Positions 3,964-26,873 of a stretch of 49,806 nucleotides of DNA are shown in pieces; within the stretch, counting starts at the first letter, position 1; the number at the start of each line of letters is the position of its first letter. A model generated the notes under the pieces. The model made no database searches. It was given only the letters and a program-made list of their open reading frames with translations, and was not told where the DNA came from. A program made the position numbers and the translations under genes. Origin of the DNA: an uncultured Clostridia bacterium (GTDB taxonomy: Bacteria; Bacillota; Clostridia; Christensenellales; Aristaeellaceae); NCBI GenBank assembly GCA_947166705.1, contig CAMVFE010000017.1:1-49806 (forward strand), given 5' to 3'.

Positions 3964-4488
3964 TTATTGAAATCTTTCCAGCGCTTCCTCCCGGGTCAGA
4001 AGCTCGAGCAGCAGCTGATGCGGAAGACACACCACCGCGTTTCCAAGGATCCGCTCATCCCTGTTCTGCATGGTGACCATTCCTTCCCGAACGCAGTCAT
4101 TTCCCCTGCAGTTTGCTTCCTCCATGCAGAATCCTTCAGGTGTCAGATGCAGGATGTTAATCCACTCGGTTCCGTCTTCCCGGTTCTGTCTGATCGTTTC
4201 CGTGCGTTCACCCTCCAGCGGCAGCGGAAGCAGATCAATCGGTTCTGGCCCGCTCACCAGCACAAAAGCAATGACCGCATCATTTTCCGAAAGCATCAGG
4301 ACTTTCTTCGCCCGATCCGGGCCTTCAGGCTCTTCCCCTTCCGGATTATATCCGGTTTCCGTTTCGGCATAATTCCCTGCCGCGGCTTCGTCTTTCGTCC
4401 CGGCCGCATGCGCGGTAAAACGGAATCCACCCAGGAAAATGAACATCGCTGTCAGGAATAAAAGCGTTCCTGTCCTGTATCCTTTCAC
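3964..4488 (-). CDS. Secreted protein of unknown function
   Basis: 174 residues, not recognised. Residues 1-28 form a signal peptide (MKGYRTG, hydrophobic LLFLTAMFIFLGGF, cleavage likely after AHA). The next part is acidic and rich in Glu/Gly/Ala (28-60), then a compact domain with two cysteines in ANCRGNDC. Start codon is GTG, chosen because AAGGAG lies 10 bases upstream and the signal peptide begins there. It is the first gene after a good promoter (4552-4580) and precedes the GH31 gene, so it may serve the same sugar-use operon, but nothing in it shows this directly. Confidence 0.7.
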   Translation of the reverse strand: MKGYRTGTLLFLTAMFIFLGGFRFTAHAAGTKDEAAAGNYAETETGYNPEGEEPEGPDRAKKVLMLSENDAVIAFVLVSGPEPIDLLPLPLEGERTETIRQNREDGTEWINILHLTPEGFCMEEANCRGNDCVREGMVTMQNRDERILGNAVVCLPHQLLLELLTREEALERFQ

Positions 4489-4551
4489 GGATTCTTCTCT
4501 CCTTATGTTTTCCCTTTCCTGAATTCAGTCTCTTCTCTCTCATACGGAAGT

Positions 4552-4580
4552 ATTATATCGTGTTTCTTCCTGCCGGGCAA
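4552..4580 (-). promoter_or_regulatory. Promoter for the secreted protein-GH31-esterase unit
   Basis: Minus strand TTGCCC (4575-4580), 17-base spacer, TATAAT (4552-4557). Leader of about 55 bases contains the 10-base palindrome CTGAATTCAG (4529-4538), a possible operator. Confidence 0.7.
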
Positions 4581-4600
4581 TAAAGCAGTGATATTCGGGC

Positions 4601-4633
4601 AAAAAAAGAGAGCACCCGCAAAAAGATGCTCTC
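4601..4633 (-). terminator. Terminator after kdgK
   Basis: GAGAGCA (4608-4614) pairs with TGCTCTC (4627-4633); on the minus strand the stem runs into a stretch of seven T. It ends the aldolase-kinase unit and isolates it from the GH31 operon promoter. Confidence 0.85.
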
Positions 4634-4656
4634 CGTTTTCTGATGATGAAGTTCCG

Positions 4657-5691
4657 TTAACGCTGTACGCGCCCGGTGCCGGACCCTTTCATCAGGGATT
4701 CGACCTCCGCCGCGCTGACACGGTTGTAGTCTCCGGGAATCGTATGTTTCAGGCAGGAAGCTGCCACGGCGAATTCCAGGGCATCCTTTTCGTTCTCATA
4801 GGTGTTCAGGCCGTAGATCAGTCCGCCGCCGAAGCTGTCGCCGCCTCCGACGCGGTCAACGATATCTGTGATGCTGTACTTTCTGCTCAGGAAAAAGTCC
4901 TTCCCGTTATACAGGCACGCGCTCCAGTCATTATGGTTTGCGCTTTTGCTTTCCCGCAGCGTAATGGCGACGCGCTTGATATTCGGATATTTGGCCATGG
5001 CGCCAGAGGCAATCTTCCTGTAAAGCTCCACGTCAATCTGTCCTTCTTCCACCGCTGAAGACGATTCCGCACTCAGGCCCAGGGATTTCTGGAAGTCCTC
5101 CTCATTGGCGATGACCGTATCAACGTACTTCACCAGCTCGGTCATCACTTCGTCCGCACGCTTGCCGTACTTCCACAGATTCTTGCGGTAGTTCAGATCG
5201 CAGGAAACGTGAATGCCCAGCTTTTGCGCGGTCTTCACAGCCTCCAGGCTCAGATCCGCCGCTCCCTGGGAAATGGCGGGCGTGATGCCGGTCAGATGGA
5301 ACCACGTCGCACCTTCGAAGACCTTATTCCAGTCAATGTCCCCGATTTTTGCCTCAGCGATGGCAGAACCGGCCCGGTCGTAAACAACCTTGGAGGGGCG
5401 CTGAACGGCGCCGGTTTCCAGATAGTAGATGCCAAGGCGTCCTTCCTTGCGGACAATTTTGCCTGTATCCACGCCGAACCCGCGCAGTTCCCGGATGCAT
5501 GCTTCAGCGATATCATTCTTTGGCAGCACGGTCACGAACGCGGTATCCATGCCATAATTCGCAAGGCTGACTGCAACATTCGCCTCGCCGCCGCCGAAGG
5601 TTGCCTCCAGCACAGGGCTCTGAAAAAAACGTTCGTATGCGGGGCTCTTCAGTCTCAGCATAATTTCTCCGAAGGTAATCACTTTGGCCAT
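4657..5691 (-). CDS. kdgK: 2-dehydro-3-deoxygluconokinase (PfkB family)
   Basis: 344 residues. Phosphorylates 2-keto-3-deoxygluconate (KDG) to KDPG with ATP. PfkB signature 1 is seen near residues 33-45 ([15 protein letters not shown]) and signature 2 with the catalytic Asp in [11 protein letters not shown] near 283. N-terminal start [11 protein letters not shown] is typical of KDG kinases. ATG start with AAGGAGG upstream. The aldolase that consumes KDPG is encoded 33 bases upstream, so the pair performs the final steps of hexuronate or gluconate breakdown. A related sugar kinase (fructokinase) is the alternative, but the aldolase neighbour argues for KDG. Confidence 0.92.
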
Positions 5692-14248: not shown

Positions 14249-14277
14249 ATTATACGCATCGGAGCGAGGTCTGTCAA
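14249..14277 (-). promoter_or_regulatory. Perfect-consensus sigma-A promoter for greA
   Basis: Minus strand TTGACA (14272-14277), 17-base spacer, TATAAT (14249-14254). Both hexamers match the consensus at all six positions. It begins 5 bases beyond the metI stop. Confidence 0.9.
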
Positions 14278-14282
14278 GCTTC

Positions 14283-14999
14283 CTACTGATTTTTCAGCCG
14301 CTTGTCGCATTTCCTGGCCAGCCACGTGCCGAAGGTCTGGAGAATCTGGACGAGCAGTACCAGGATGACCAGCGCCGCCAGCAGCACCGCGTGGTTGGAC
14401 CGCTGCTGCCCCTGGGCAATCGCAAGATTTCCCAGCCCGCCTCCGCCGACCGCGCCGCTCATGGCCGTATAGCCCAGAATCGTGGTAATGGCAGTGGTAA
14501 ATGAAGTAATCAGGGAAGGTACGCTTTCCGGAAGCATGACATGGATCACAGTCTGCAGGGTATTCGCACCGGAGGACTGGGCCATCTCAATGATATTCGG
14601 ATTCAGCTCCCGCAGGGAACCCTCCACGAGTCTGGCGACAAACGGGAAAGCCGCGATCACCAGCGGCACGATCACGCCTCCGTCTCCGACGGCAGAGCCG
14701 AGCATCATCCGCGTGAAAGGCATCAGCAGAACGATCAGAATAATGAACGGAGCGGAACGGAGGAGATTGATCATCCAGTTCAGAAAAGACATCAGCCAGC
14801 GGGGCAGAGGGCGGATCCCCTTCGCGTCGCCCGTAACCAGAATGATGCCGAGCGGCAGGCCGATCAGGATCGCGAACAGCGTGGACATCAGGGTGATATA
14901 GAGCGTGGAGAGCGTCGCGGATACAAAATCCTCCTGGATCAGCACCCACGCGTCCGCCATTTTCTTCTCGCTGAAGTATCTGGTCAGGTAAGCCTCCAT
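14283..14999 (-). CDS. metI: Methionine ABC transporter permease MetI
   Basis: 238 residues. Membrane subunit of the D/L-methionine importer. Five hydrophobic segments are visible, from TLYITLMSTLFAILIGLPLG to the C-terminal VLLAALVILVLLVQIL. The EAA-type loop that contacts the ATPase reads ELNPNIIEMAQSSGANTLQTV. Start ATG overlaps the metN stop (TGATG), so translation is coupled. Last gene of the met unit. Confidence 0.93.
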   Translation of the reverse strand: MEAYLTRYFSEKKMADAWVLIQEDFVSATLSTLYITLMSTLFAILIGLPLGIILVTGDAKGIRPLPRWLMSFLNWMINLLRSAPFIILIVLLMPFTRMMLGSAVGDGGVIVPLVIAAFPFVARLVEGSLRELNPNIIEMAQSSGANTLQTVIHVMLPESVPSLITSFTTAITTILGYTAMSGAVGGGGLGNLAIAQGQQRSNHAVLLAALVILVLLVQILQTFGTWLARKCDKRLKNQ

Positions 15000-16063
15000 C
15001 AGTGTTCTCCCCCTTCCTGCCGCTCCGCGTCCGCATTCACGCCTTCCGTGTTGGCATATTCGCTTTCCACCTGAATCCGCAGATCCGGCGTTTCGCTCAG
15101 GTACTGTACCGCCCTCGCCAGTTCATCGGGGCCTCCGGGAATATTGATGAGCATGGTTCCATATACCTTTCCGTCCAGCGTGCGGGTAGTCGCGGAAAGG
15201 ATATTTGCCGGTATCCGGCATTCCATCGCCATCGAGGCCAGCAGAGGCCTGGTCGCCGCTTCCGCTCCCTGGAAAACCAGCCTGATCATCTGATGGTGCG
15301 GAGCGCCCAGATTTTCGATGCCGGCCGACATGTCCGGGTATACCAGGCGTTTGGTCGCCCGGGCCCTGGGATTGGAAAAGACCTCGCTGACCTCCCCTTC
15401 CTCGACCACGGAGCCGTTTTCCAGAATCGCGACCCGGTTGCAGATCTCCTGAACGACGCTCATCTGATGCGTGATCACGATCACCGTGATCCGCATCTTC
15501 TGATTGATCTCCTGAATCAGGGACAAAATGTCGTGCGTGGTCTTGGGATCCAGCGCGGACGTCGCCTCATCGCACAGGAGCACCTTGGGATCCGTTGCGA
15601 GAGCCCGGGCGATGGCAATCCGCTGCTGCTGTCCTCCGGAAAGCTGGGCGGGAAATGCCTGAGCCTTGTCCTCCATGCCGACCGTCTTCAGCAGTTCGCC
15701 CGCCCTTTTTTCCGCCTGCTCGCGGGGCATATGGATCAGTTTCAGCGGCAGCATGATATTCTGCAGGCAGTTCCTCTGCATCAGCAGATTGAAGCTTTGG
15801 AAGATCATGGTCACGTGATGGCGCATTTCCTGCATCCGGTGCTTGTTCAGCATGCCCAGATCCACGCCGTCCAGTTTGACGGTTCCTTCCGTCGGGCGTT
15901 CCAGCATGTTGATGCACCGGACAAGCGTACTTTTACCCGCGCCGCTCATGCCGATAATCCCGTAGATATCTCCGTCCCGGATGGTCAGATTGACATTGCG
16001 GAGGGCATCCACGGTTCCCCCCGCCGTCACAAAGCTCTTGGAAAGATTGCAGATTTCAATCAT
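14999..16063 (-). CDS. metN: Methionine ABC transporter ATP-binding protein MetN
   Basis: 354 residues. Walker [10 protein letters not shown] near 37-45, signature [15 protein letters not shown], Walker [15 protein letters not shown]-loop VITHQMSVV, and a C-terminal NIL/ACT-like domain (about 255-345) that in this family binds methionine and inhibits transport. Start chosen at [11 protein letters not shown] with GGAGG 7 bases upstream; the in-frame codons before it run into the intergenic hairpin. It is separated from metQ by 73 bases with a strong stem-loop. Confidence 0.95.
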
Positions 16064-16090
16064 GCGTTTGCCTCCGATAGACACCAAAAT

Positions 16091-16118
16091 GACACCGGCC
16101 GGATGAACGGCCGGTGTC
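16091..16118 (-). other. Strong intercistronic hairpin between metQ and metN
   Basis: GACACCGGCCG/CGGCCGGTGTC, perfect 11-base stem with a 6-base loop, followed on the minus strand by ATTTTGG. The T tract is weak, so it may act as a partial terminator or as a 3' end protecting metQ mRNA. Confidence 0.75.
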
Positions 16119-16136
16119 GGATTCAATCCTTCTTTC

Positions 16137-16994
16137 TTACTTCGCGGTGGTCAGCACGCTCAGGTCCGTCGTCTGTCCGCCGTAAATCGCCATCGGTTCA
16201 ACGTGGATCGGAGCGACGATCGCGATATGCGTCCCGTTATCCCGGTTGAAGGCTTCCTGATACGGAATGTGGGCGAAGAAGTTCGCGTACACGTCTCCGG
16301 CTTCCACAAAGTCGTTGGGCGTCACATAGTCCGTGACTTCCTTCACATCCAGGGTGATTCCCTTTTCCGCCAGGATTTCCTTGGCGATGTTGGCCATCAG
16401 CTCATGCGGAACGGGCGTCACGGCGATGCTGATGGTCTGGCCCTTCAGCGCTTCGTAATCGACGCTGGCGTCATAGCCGTCCGTCGGTTCGCCGACAACG
16501 GAAACCACGGAACCGTCCGCATAATTCTCCGCGATGAAATCAACGATCTTCTGGGAAGAGAAAGCGGCAACCAGGGCCTTGGTCAGATCGCTGTCCTCAT
16601 TTCCTTCCTTCACGCAGATCACATTGCTGTAGGGAGAATCCGCGCTTTCGATGGCCAGGCCGTCCTTGGAGGGATTGAGGCCGTTATCAAGCGCGTAGTT
16701 GTTATTGATGACGGCAAAGTCTACATCCTGCAGCACGTTCGGAACGTTGGCCGCCTGAACGGGAATCAGCTCGATTTCAGCCACCGTGGAGGCCACATCC
16801 TTGTCCGTCGCTTCGATGCCGGCATCCTCTTTCAGCGTCAGCGCTCCGATGGACTGCAGCAGCAGCAGGGCGCGGCCTTCGTTGGTAGCATCGTCCGGAA
16901 TCGCGATCTTATAGGCGTCCGCCATGGCGAAGGAACAGGTCGCGGTAATCAGCAGCGCAGCGGCGCAGAGCAGCAGAATCAACTTTTTCATCAT
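16137..16994 (-). CDS. metQ: MetQ/NlpA-type methionine-binding protein with circularly permuted lobes
   Basis: 285 residues. Signal peptide 1-25 (LILLLCAAALLITA, cleavage likely after FAMA); no good lipobox is present although MetQ is usually a lipoprotein. Residues 28-160 (YKIAIPDDATNEGRALLLL, AVINNNYALDNGLNPSKD, DSPYSNVICVKEG) match the part that normally forms the C-terminal half of MetQ. Residues 187-283 (TISIAVTPVPHELMANIAKE, VTDYVTPNDFVEAGDVYANFF, HIPYQEAFN, HVEPMAIYG) match what is normally the N-terminal half. The order is thus swapped, joined by a linker at about 163-185, with total length as usual. First gene of metQ-metN-metI. The function as methionine-binding protein is inferred from metNI. 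Confidence 0.9.
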   Translation of the reverse strand: MMKKLILLLCAAALLITATCSFAMADAYKIAIPDDATNEGRALLLLQSIGALTLKEDAGIEATDKDVASTVAEIELIPVQAANVPNVLQDVDFAVINNNYALDNGLNPSKDGLAIESADSPYSNVICVKEGNEDSDLTKALVAAFSSQKIVDFIAENYADGSVVSVVGEPTDGYDASVDYEALKGQTISIAVTPVPHELMANIAKEILAEKGITLDVKEVTDYVTPNDFVEAGDVYANFFAHIPYQEAFNRDNGTHIAIVAPIHVEPMAIYGGQTTDLSVLTTAK

Positions 16995-17339: not shown

Positions 17340-18098
17340 TCAGGGCATTTCCTGCAGGCCGGCGTTCTTCCCGCCTGCGGGTTCCGGGTTTCCGGGTTCC
17401 AGCCGCAGCAGGATCAGCTCGCAGGGATCGTTGATCCTCGGCAGCCAGGTTCCGTTGGTCATTCCCCGGGAGATCATCATCCGTCCGCCGTCATGCAGCC
17501 CGTGGGTCAGCCGGGGAAACAGCCCCTGTCCGGGTGCATACAGCCCGCGGCCGCCGATCTGGACCTGGCCGCCGTGAGCGTGCCCGCAGACGGTAAAGTC
17601 AATCTTTCTTCCGCGGACCTGATCCCGCCACATCTCCGGATGGTGGCACATCAGTAGGATAAATTCGTCCTGCCGTTCCAGTTCATCCAGAAAAGCGGGA
17701 TTGGCTTCACCCTTCGGACGGCTGGAAAGCCCGGCAATCCGGATTCCCCGGAAGACCGTACTCGCGTCATCCAGCCAGACGGCGCGGCTTCGCCTCACAA
17801 TCTCCATCCATTCATCATGATAGGGGCAGCGCCGTTCATGGTTTCCCATGGAGTAAAACACGGGCGCCGCCTCCGGGGCTTCGCGCAGGAAGCGCGCGGC
17901 CCCTTCATAGCTTTTCCGGTGGCGGTTGACCAGGTCTCCGGGAACCAGGATCGCATCCGCGGCCCGGAAATCCTCCATCACATCGTCAAAATCCCCGCAA
18001 TGAAGGTCCGCGGCGACCGCCAGCGTCAGCGGCTGAGTGATCTTGGGGCTTCGGATTGTATGCCGAACCCGCACTCTTCTATTTGGCATATTTCGCAT
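17340..18098 (-). CDS. Metallophosphoesterase (YkuE-like)
   Basis: 252 residues. All motifs of calcineurin-like phosphoesterases are present: DLHCGD (about 32-37), GDLVNRH (54-60), GNHE (85-88), CHHPE and CGHAHGGQ (171-178) for two metal ions. The N-terminal arrangement VRHTIRSPKIT..LTLAVAADLHCG resembles YkuE-type enzymes, but there is no clear signal peptide or membrane segment. Start at MRNMPNRRV; a second ATG three codons on is also possible. It overlaps the end of the upstream membrane gene by about 20 bases. Substrate not known. Confidence 0.88.
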   Translation of the reverse strand: MRNMPNRRVRVRHTIRSPKITQPLTLAVAADLHCGDFDDVMEDFRAADAILVPGDLVNRHRKSYEGAARFLREAPEAAPVFYSMGNHERRCPYHDEWMEIVRRSRAVWLDDASTVFRGIRIAGLSSRPKGEANPAFLDELERQDEFILLMCHHPEMWRDQVRGRKIDFTVCGHAHGGQVQIGGRGLYAPGQGLFPRLTHGLHDGGRMMISRGMTNGTWLPRINDPCELILLRLEPGNPEPAGGKNAGLQEMP

Positions 18099-18966
18099 AT
18101 TCCTTTCGGGCCGGAACCATCATCGCCGCGCCAAGCAGCAGAAGGACTGCCGCCGTCCCGAAAACCTCCAGGTTCAGCCGGCCCCTGAGATGCGCCGTCT
18201 GCAGGCTCAGGGCCAGGGAAGCTTCAGCAATCATGCCCTGCAGGTTCAGGCTTCGAACCAGGATCCACAGCAGGATGCACAGCAGTCCCGCCGCGGCAAA
18301 GGCACCCCCGATATACTGCCCCGCCGTCAGAATTCTTCTGCTCATCAGCAGAGCGATCACTCCCGCCGCGAGCACGCAGCTCATCGCGCCGGCGAGCGGA
18401 ACCCTCTTCAGCGCGTCCATGATCTGCGACAGGCTGATATGATCCCGGACGCGTTTTAGCCCAGCCTCCACCAGCGTATCCCGATACTGTACGGCGCTGC
18501 CCCTGATGGCCGTCTGCGCGTCCCTCACGATCCTGTCCGCGGTGATGCTGATCGTCATCTCGTCAAGCTCGGAGAGAAATGCCTGATCCGCCAGCAGGGC
18601 ATCCCTGGCGCCCCGCAGATCAAATTCCGGCCTTTCGGCCATGCGGCCCTTCTCCAGCGCGTCCATCCACCAGCCCACCATCTCCCGGTCCAGCTGCTCA
18701 ACCTTTTCCCGGGTCACCAGCGGGAGAATATCCTCGGGGCTGAAATGATCCTTTTCCGCCAGTCCGCCGATCTTTTCCCGGATCGTCTCCATCTGAAGAT
18801 CCACGACATCGTCGGCCAGCGCGGCCTGCTCGTGCAGGTCCCGCGAGGTAAGAATCTGTACGCCGAGCAGGCTGGCCAGCGTCCCCGTCAGGCAGGCCGT
18901 CAGGATCAGCGCGCAAACGGCCGCGAAAAATCTCGCGCCCGCGGAGGGCATCTTTATCTTCTTCAT
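18079..18966 (-). CDS. Membrane protein of unknown function
   Basis: 295 residues, not recognised. TM1 at about 14-36 (FFAAVCALILTACLTGTLASLLGV), a large outside helical domain (40-185, with conserved-looking MVGWWMDALEKG), then three C-terminal segments (LAGAMSCVLAAGVIALLM, YIGGAFAAAGLLCILLWILV, FGTAAVLLLLGAAMMVPA). Start chosen at MKKIKMPS, whose ATG overlaps the stop of the preceding small gene (ATGA). It sits between uvrB/small protein and the phosphoesterase. Confidence 0.75.
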   Translation of the reverse strand: MKKIKMPSAGARFFAAVCALILTACLTGTLASLLGVQILTSRDLHEQAALADDVVDLQMETIREKIGGLAEKDHFSPEDILPLVTREKVEQLDREMVGWWMDALEKGRMAERPEFDLRGARDALLADQAFLSELDEMTISITADRIVRDAQTAIRGSAVQYRDTLVEAGLKRVRDHISLSQIMDALKRVPLAGAMSCVLAAGVIALLMSRRILTAGQYIGGAFAAAGLLCILLWILVRSLNLQGMIAEASLALSLQTAHLRGRLNLEVFGTAAVLLLLGAAMMVPARKEYAKYAK

Positions 18967-19088
18967 TTTGTCACCACCAGCTTTATTGCCACCTGAATCA
19001 GGTTCTGAATTCTTCCGCCGTACCGCGCCACCGCGTATCCAACCGCCGCCGCAAAGGGCAGCGCGAGCAGCACGGGCGTCAGCCACAT
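18963..19088 (-). CDS. Small membrane protein, 41 residues
   Basis: Sequence begins MWLTPVLLALPFAAAVGYAVA: one membrane segment, then an amphipathic basic tail (RIQNLIQVAIKLVVTK). ATG start 14 bases after the uvrB stop, AGGA upstream; a GTG eight codons earlier (19112), overlapping the end of uvrB, is the alternative. Its stop overlaps the next ATG. Position between uvrB and a membrane protein gene with overlap supports it being real; function unknown. Confidence 0.6.
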   Translation of the reverse strand: MWLTPVLLALPFAAAVGYAVARYGGRIQNLIQVAIKLVVTK

Positions 19089-19101
19089 CCATTTTCCGTT
19101 C

Positions 19102-26036: not shown

Positions 26037-26873
26037 TTATCCGTCGATGGCACCGCTCTCATCCGCCGGCATTTCACCGCCGCCGAGCACCGCGTTCACG
26101 GCGTCCGCCTGTTCCTGGGTCAGGACTCCCGCTTCGACAAGTCCGGCCAGCGGATCGCTGCCGGCGGTGCCGCTTCCCCCTTCCGGAGCCGCGGCGCCCT
26201 CAGGCAGTTCCGTCGGCGGATTGCCCTGCGGGTCTCCGGGAACCGGCGCGCCCTCCGCGGGGGCCTGTCCGTCCTGCGGCTGTGAAGCATCTCCGGCGGT
26301 GTTCTGGTTGCTTTTCGGATCCGCCGGCATGTTCTGCTTCAGGTACTCCGCGATCTTGTCGGCGGTCTCCTGGTCGATGACATTTTTCTCCACCAGGCTC
26401 TTCAGCTGGAGCTCGGTCTTTTCCTGGATCTTTGCCGTTCCCCGGCCGCCTCTGCCGTTCCTCCTGCCAGGCTGTCCTCCGGTGATGGTGTTTCCCCCGG
26501 CGCCCTGCGCATTCTGTCCGGACTCAGCAGTCCCCTGCTCCGGCGTCTGCTGCTGGTCAGGGCTGGTACCGTTTTCCGCGGGAGCCTGCGCCCCCGGCCG
26601 GAGCTGGTTTCTGCCTCCGGGCATCTGGCCCTGTCCGTTATTCCGGTTTCCGTCTCCGGGCATCTGGGGCTGTCCGTTATTCCGGTTCCCGCCTCCGGGC
26701 ATCTGGCCCTGCCGGGTGTTCCGGTTTCCACCGTCTCTCCCCGGGCCGCCCTTTGCGGCTGTCACGGCGGAGCCCGCCTCGGGACCTTCCGCCAGGGCCG
26801 GTACAGCTGCAGCCGCCAGCAGCAGGCTGAGACTCAGGATTCCCGCGATAATCTTTTTCTTATTCGTTTTCAT
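26037..26873 (-). CDS. Secreted Gly/Asn/Gln/Pro-rich repeat protein
   Basis: 278 residues. Signal peptide 1-28 (KKIIAGILSLSLLLAAAAVPALA). Residues 50-92 hold three copies of a ~13-residue repeat of the form GQMPGGGNRNN. The sequence up to 145 is Gly/Arg/Gln/Asn-rich with no cysteine. Two similar helical motifs follow: LKSLVEKNVIDQETADKIAEYL (158-178, given in part) and LAGLVEAGVLTQEQADAVNAVL (242-263), separated by a Pro/Gly/Ala-rich linker. It is an extracellular flexible protein; function unknown. ATG with AAAGGAGG. It lies between the two-component genes and the FMN-binding gene and has an 11-base direct repeat upstream. Confidence 0.8.
   Translation of the reverse strand: MKTNKKKIIAGILSLSLLLAAAAVPALAEGPEAGSAVTAAKGGPGRDGGNRNTRQGQMPGGGNRNNGQPQMPGDGNRNNGQGQMPGGRNQLRPGAQAPAENGTSPDQQQTPEQGTAESGQNAQGAGGNTITGGQPGRRNGRGGRGTAKIQEKTELQLKSLVEKNVIDQETADKIAEYLKQNMPADPKSNQNTAGDASQPQDGQAPAEGAPVPGDPQGNPPTELPEGAAAPEGGSGTAGSDPLAGLVEAGVLTQEQADAVNAVLGGGEMPADESGAIDG

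Follow-up and report, generated by a model that had tools for sequence, protein, structure and literature searches.

Does the metQ gene of this locus encode a methionine receptor whose two halves stand in reverse order, and if so, is the product a working protein? The window, a 49,806-nucleotide stretch of DNA from an uncultured Clostridia bacterium, carries an open reading frame that reads YKIAIPDDATNEGRALLLLQ directly after its signal peptide, a stretch found in the middle of ordinary MetQ proteins. The earlier note, made from the sequence alone, proposed that the halves of the MetQ/NlpA fold are swapped in a protein of normal total length, that the break falls between the SLDEL-like and VAVPNDPTN-like segments, and that intact metN and metI lie downstream. 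The length (285 residues) is indeed normal, and the open reading frames and Pfam matches bear out the two neighbors (Table 1). The junction sequences also place the break where it was proposed. The canonical junction SLDELxDGA/xIAVPND, with the slash marking the cut, is represented in the window protein by a C-terminus ending in TDLSVLTTAK and by an N-terminus in which the signal peptide is followed by YKIAIPDD.

Table 1. Features of the permuted metQ gene and its operon, in window coordinates.
Feature	Position	Strand	Basis or remark
Circularly permuted metQ	16137..16994	-	285 aa, ATG start; PF03180 halves swapped
Signal peptide, residues 1-25, ending in AMA, no lipobox	16920..16994	-	Sequence; presumed cleavage site
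Residues 26-166, canonical C-terminal segment with pocket R41, N97, N124	16497..16919	-	
Residues 167-185, new 19-residue linker from canonical C-terminus to canonical N-terminus	16440..16496	-	
Residues 186-279, canonical N-terminal segment with pocket Y223, F240, H242, Y245	16158..16439	-	
Residues 280-285, new C-terminus at the canonical SLDEL loop position	16140..16157	-	
Hairpin of 11 perfectly paired bp separating metQ from metN; resembles a terminator with a weak T tail	16091..16118	-	Fold z-score -3.7
metN, ABC ATPase with C-terminal NIL domain	14999..16126	-	Likely start ATG at 16063
metI, permease subunit, PF00528	14283..14999	-	ORFs, Pfam

The swapped order was recovered by Pfam, by the sequences of solved chains and by a rotation test, so that the central proposal, a C-terminal part lying directly behind the signal peptide, stands. 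Pfam finds only PF03180 in the frame (E 2.5e-64; 217.1 bits with a curated cut-off of 27), and the match comes in two stretches, with residues 26-164 falling on profile positions 96-233 of 236. A single collinear match to PF03180 in canonical order is absent from the unrotated protein. The solved MetQ-family chain 4k3f_A (E 3.6e-55) is covered in the same manner, residues 186-279 matching its positions 3-96 and residues 29-164 its positions 103-237. Against a canonical profile of 240 positions, built from 63 canonical relatives with four canonical rows left out, the unrotated protein gives two swapped matches of 159.1 bits (profile 99-238) and 100.5 bits (profile 1-96). Rotating it at the junction yields one match of 271.6 bits over positions 1-238, and the best single match among 200 shuffles reaches 3.9 bits. 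In a panel of 125 sequences, rotation raises the best single match for 58/58 permuted proteins (median +124 bits) and for 0/67 canonical ones, the canonical side being a consistency check and not an independent control because 63 of the 67 rows also built the profile. Since its segment order is swapped, we file the protein in a permuted branch of MetQ/NlpA and not among the ordinary members. The NCBIfam MetQ models score it below their cut-offs (NF008285, 147.4 of 374 bits; TIGR00363, 138.8 of 228.85 bits). The AlphaFold2 model is confident (pLDDT 95.6, pTM 0.88), and solved MetQ chains align to about 140 of its 260 residues with TMq of at most 0.46. Such coverage is expected of methods that preserve chain order, and it places each part on its own and not both parts at once. 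Taken at the level of sequence, the window protein is a real circular permutation of a MetQ/NlpA protein.

The window genome is a draft in 73 contigs, and a frameshift, a chimeric assembly or the joining of two gene pieces might in principle have created such an order. This explanation is extremely improbable, because the junction is read without a stop in 115 genomes of the family, including the single-contig G003 and G034, and in other families as well. Of the 308 genomes in the window's family, 278 show some match and 115 a contiguous one of the same permuted type, here called group A (E 2.1e-61 or better); in the 43 of these that were read, the order is swapped in every one. A check for the same order in related genomes, which the earlier note had proposed, thus finds it in 115/308 family genomes and in 11 other families, and an origin by frameshift or assembly join is ruled out. 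In the window's own genus, 37 of 45 genomes carry the group-A form. Junction-spanning matches occur in families f31, f34, f37, f40, f42, f48, f61, f76, f82, f97 and f153. A second permuted type, group B, accounts for at least 28 further family rows at 29-34% identity to the window protein, and the C-terminal part came first in all 20 group-B rows fetched, 18 of which were aligned. At the order level, at least five of 396 genomes are permuted (two A-like, two B-like, one divergent), a count that leaves out the own-family genomes present in the sample. At the class level there are at least 18 among 391 (17 A-like and one B-like, G936), and among 348 genomes at the phylum level at least one, G1081, is permuted. 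Outside the family, one-part matches, which are the canonical pattern, far outnumber permuted ones among the matches listed. Among 23 named loci, six are permuted; they come from uncultured Clostridia, and two carry the labels sheep rumen and roe deer omasum. The swapped MetQ is therefore common to many Clostridia, rumen species among them.

In the window protein, the cut lies in the loop that directly precedes the strand opening the canonical C-terminal segment, and a conserved linker of 19 residues bridges the old termini. Linker residues D172, G173, V178, D179, Y180, L183 and G185 are invariant in 34 own-family sequences. Based on the order of secondary-structure elements and on the general build of type II receptors, both hinge crossings would be kept and the lobes would exchange roles, lobe 1 becoming contiguous and lobe 2 split. 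Both termini, together with the membrane anchor in lipidated relatives, would thereby shift to lobe 2. A permuted form with a single surviving hinge crossing was also considered and discarded, as the element order of the AlphaFold2 model speaks otherwise.

The residues expected to hold the ligand are retained. In Neisseria meningitidis MetQ, according to an excerpt of PMC6739813, methionine is held by R156, N213, N238, Y81, F98, H100 and Y103. Transferred by motif to E. coli MetQ numbering, these are R144, N202, N229, Y69, F86, H88 and Y91, and the pocket residues of the window protein (Table 1) align to them in that order. Each of the seven is unchanged across the 43 permuted rows of group A, among them the window protein itself. 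All 14 group-B rows share six of these residues, and at the seventh position 12 have tyrosine and two have phenylalanine. N124 is the counterpart of E. coli N229, whose replacement by alanine lowers the affinity for L-methionine more than 10^5-fold, as stated in the available portion of PMC12357092. The gene has a dN/dS of 0.14-0.20 against six congeners. In the window genome (G000, 71% complete) the permuted metQ is the sole match, and a single match, of the permuted type, is found in eight of nine congeners that are at least 95% complete. The gene thus very probably encodes a genuine, working permutant of MetQ that serves as the receptor of a MetNI methionine importer. The protein would be exported, bind L-methionine in the cleft between the lobes through the usual seven residues, and hand it to the MetI and MetN proteins encoded downstream.

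Belonging to the family does not by itself determine the ligand, and a permuted MetQ-fold receptor could have turned to another sulfur or amino acid compound. The N-lobe of group B has diverged far, to 25-27% identity to that of the window protein where BLAST found it. Separately, no Rfam family matches near the window operon or at 15 loci carrying group-A genes, so a regulatory sign of methionine is absent there; 12 loci with group-B genes likewise give no Rfam match. Against a changed ligand stand the methionine-contact positions, invariant throughout group A, and the NIL domain of MetN, and we regard such a change as improbable. Methionine remains the ligand that we favor.

The earlier note also described the lipobox as apparently lost. 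It is absent from the window protein, whose N-terminus reads TATC followed by an AMA site of the signal-peptidase-I type, but its absence is not tied to the permutation. In the 125-row panel, the lipobox pattern is present in all 15 group-A rows from outside the window's family. Within the family it occurs in five of 28 group-A rows (some perhaps by chance), in 0 of 12 group-B rows and in 0 of seven canonical rows. The window genome encodes Lgt, and by our reading the 18 SBP_bac_1 loci above the cut-off comprise 13 with AxA-type signal peptides, two with clear lipoboxes and three that are unclear. These panel counts and signal peptides rule out a loss caused by the permutation. Since canonical MetQ proteins of the family also do without the lipobox and the SBP_bac_1 receptors mostly have AxA sites, the missing lipobox is a trait of the lineage. 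Where group A has the pattern (20 rows), 4-8 residues separate the cysteine from the first strand (median 6); the corresponding spacing in 53 canonical rows is 5-41 residues (median 13). For Neisseria, lipidated MetQ is reported in an excerpt of PMC8416018 to be necessary for interaction with MetNI.

The permutation is accompanied by a different gene order. Of 96 distinct permuted genes, 84 have metN next after them, three come after metI and nine have no such neighbor in the fetched stretch, whereas among 85 canonical metQ genes 63 follow metI and five precede metN. The group-B members of family f31 (L109, L110) retain the order metN-metI-metQ, which suggests that in group B the permutation probably came first and the change of operon order later. 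Loci L055, L070 and L072 have the arrangement metN-metI-metQ-metQ-metN-metI, in which the first metQ is canonical and divergent and the second, directly behind it, is of group B (4041-5000, 4022-4930 and 4007-4915, respectively). Canonical-order MetQ paralogues on a very long branch (SKSQGPYTELFE) adjoin group-B permuted genes at L055 5004-5861 and L057 3017-3868. In the window operon, the hairpin between metQ and metN may favor expression of the receptor over that of the transporter. Between metI and greA, a promoter-like site (14249-14277, minus strand) has the full sigma-70 consensus (12/12) with a 17-nt spacer, the scan having returned two sites where 1.8 are expected by chance at a looser threshold. 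Elsewhere in the window, the frames at 18079-19092 (337 aa) and 26037-26873 (278 aa) have no Pfam match at E 1e-5.

Did the permutation arise once or more than once? For the trees, the lobes were put into a common order, and removal of duplicates and of sequences more than 85% identical reduced 175 rows to 125. The careful tree holds 102 rows, leaving out L113, L077, L055_5004, L057_3017 and 19 near permuted rows. In it, the 29 group-A rows form one clade (100/100) amid canonical MetQ, and the nine group-B rows form a separate clade (100/100) that is sister to the canonical L172/L176 (100/96). Groups A and B probably represent two independent permutations at one loop. Alternatively, both may descend from a single ancient permuted ancestor, in which case the trees are wrong or some canonical forms have reverted. 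The cut loop is identical in the two groups, and on a tree alone one gain followed by reversion looks like two gains. Under LG+C20+F+G4 (PMSF), the AU test does not reject one permuted clade (p 0.122), with lnL 50 lower; the test under LG+F+G4 with fast searches rejects it (p 0.011). None of 200 bootstrap trees unites A and B, whether with both lobes together, with the N-lobe alone or with the C-lobe alone. The single-lobe trees keep the groups apart each time and set B beside L172/L176, which speaks against an origin as chimeras of unrelated copies, but the N-lobe tree has two canonical rows nested in group A. The linkers differ in sequence and in length (about 19-22 compared with 27-29 residues). 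Taken with the sister position of group B to canonical proteins, these observations make a single origin unlikely. Two origins are therefore probable but not proven, because the AU tests are split.

L113 (G491, 4196-5134) is a highly divergent, permuted MetQ-like protein with its own lipobox, encoded after metN-metI and seen in one of 40 genomes of its family. It has a long branch. Its N-lobe groups with five canonical rows (98/96), the test does not reject its union with group A (p 0.35), and a third permutation is possible. The permutation seen in the window protein would most likely have come about by tandem duplication of metQ, with fusion of the C-terminal part of the first copy to the N-terminal part of the second and loss of the outer parts. 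Tandem canonical metQ genes, three in L144 and two in L158, would be raw material for this route. Among 204 ORFs, no fused intermediate of the form N-C-N-C or C-N-C was found. Four frames of 476-600 aa, counted from stop to stop, carry a canonical MetQ as their C-terminal portion (L125 2928-4727, L145 3949-5688, L126 4188-5708, L195 963-2390) and may be fusions to another gene.

Compared with canonical MetQ/NlpA proteins such as E. coli MetQ, N. meningitidis GNA1946 and T. pallidum Tp32, the window protein is alike in the sequence of both parts, in the seven ligand residues and in the partnership with metN and metI. It differs in the order of the parts, in the new linker and in the position of the termini in the fold. 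A permutation of the same kind exists in a sister receptor family, the type II glycine betaine receptors, in which Bacillus subtilis OpuAC is permuted relative to E. coli ProX (the pieces individually match weakly, at 2-17 bits). That relation was reportedly noted by Kempf and Bremer in 1995 and by Horn et al. in 2006. It concerns a different ligand family at about 14% identity and is a separate event. The excerpted text of a paper on L. lactis OpuA makes no mention of it (PMC2861598). Another natural circular permutant among the receptors of ABC importers is Treponema pallidum Tp0684 (MglB-2), assigned to type Ic or cluster Bc. As an excerpt of PMC4990184 describes it, Tp0684 still binds its ligand; unlike permuted MetQ, it is a type I sugar receptor of another fold class, with permuted strands in the N lobe and a required fourth crossover. 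Natural permutation of ABC receptors was thus already known from Tp0684 and OpuAC/ProX, and what appears to be new is the MetQ case. No report of a permuted MetQ is found among the literature matches listed from open-licence PMC, in agreement with the earlier note, which knew of no natural permutation in this family.

To our knowledge, natural circular permutations have been described mostly as lone cases. Our data suggest, with reasonable though not high confidence, that type II receptors have evolved repeatedly by permutation at the loop preceding lobe 2, with at least two independent MetQ events in Clostridia, those of group A and group B, and perhaps a third in L113, in parallel to OpuAC/ProX. 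Within the genus of the window, canonical MetQ would largely have given way to the permuted form, alongside a change of the operon from metN-metI-metQ to metQ-metN-metI. As family models that depend on segment order score the permuted proteins below their cut-offs, such proteins may be misannotated. The junction of permuted MetQ would also point to a position at which receptors used as sensors tolerate a cut. Many permuted and canonical MetQ sequences occur together in one receptor family and share their transporter partners, so that it can be asked directly how moving the termini and the membrane anchor affects receptor opening, affinity for the ligand and docking to MetNI.
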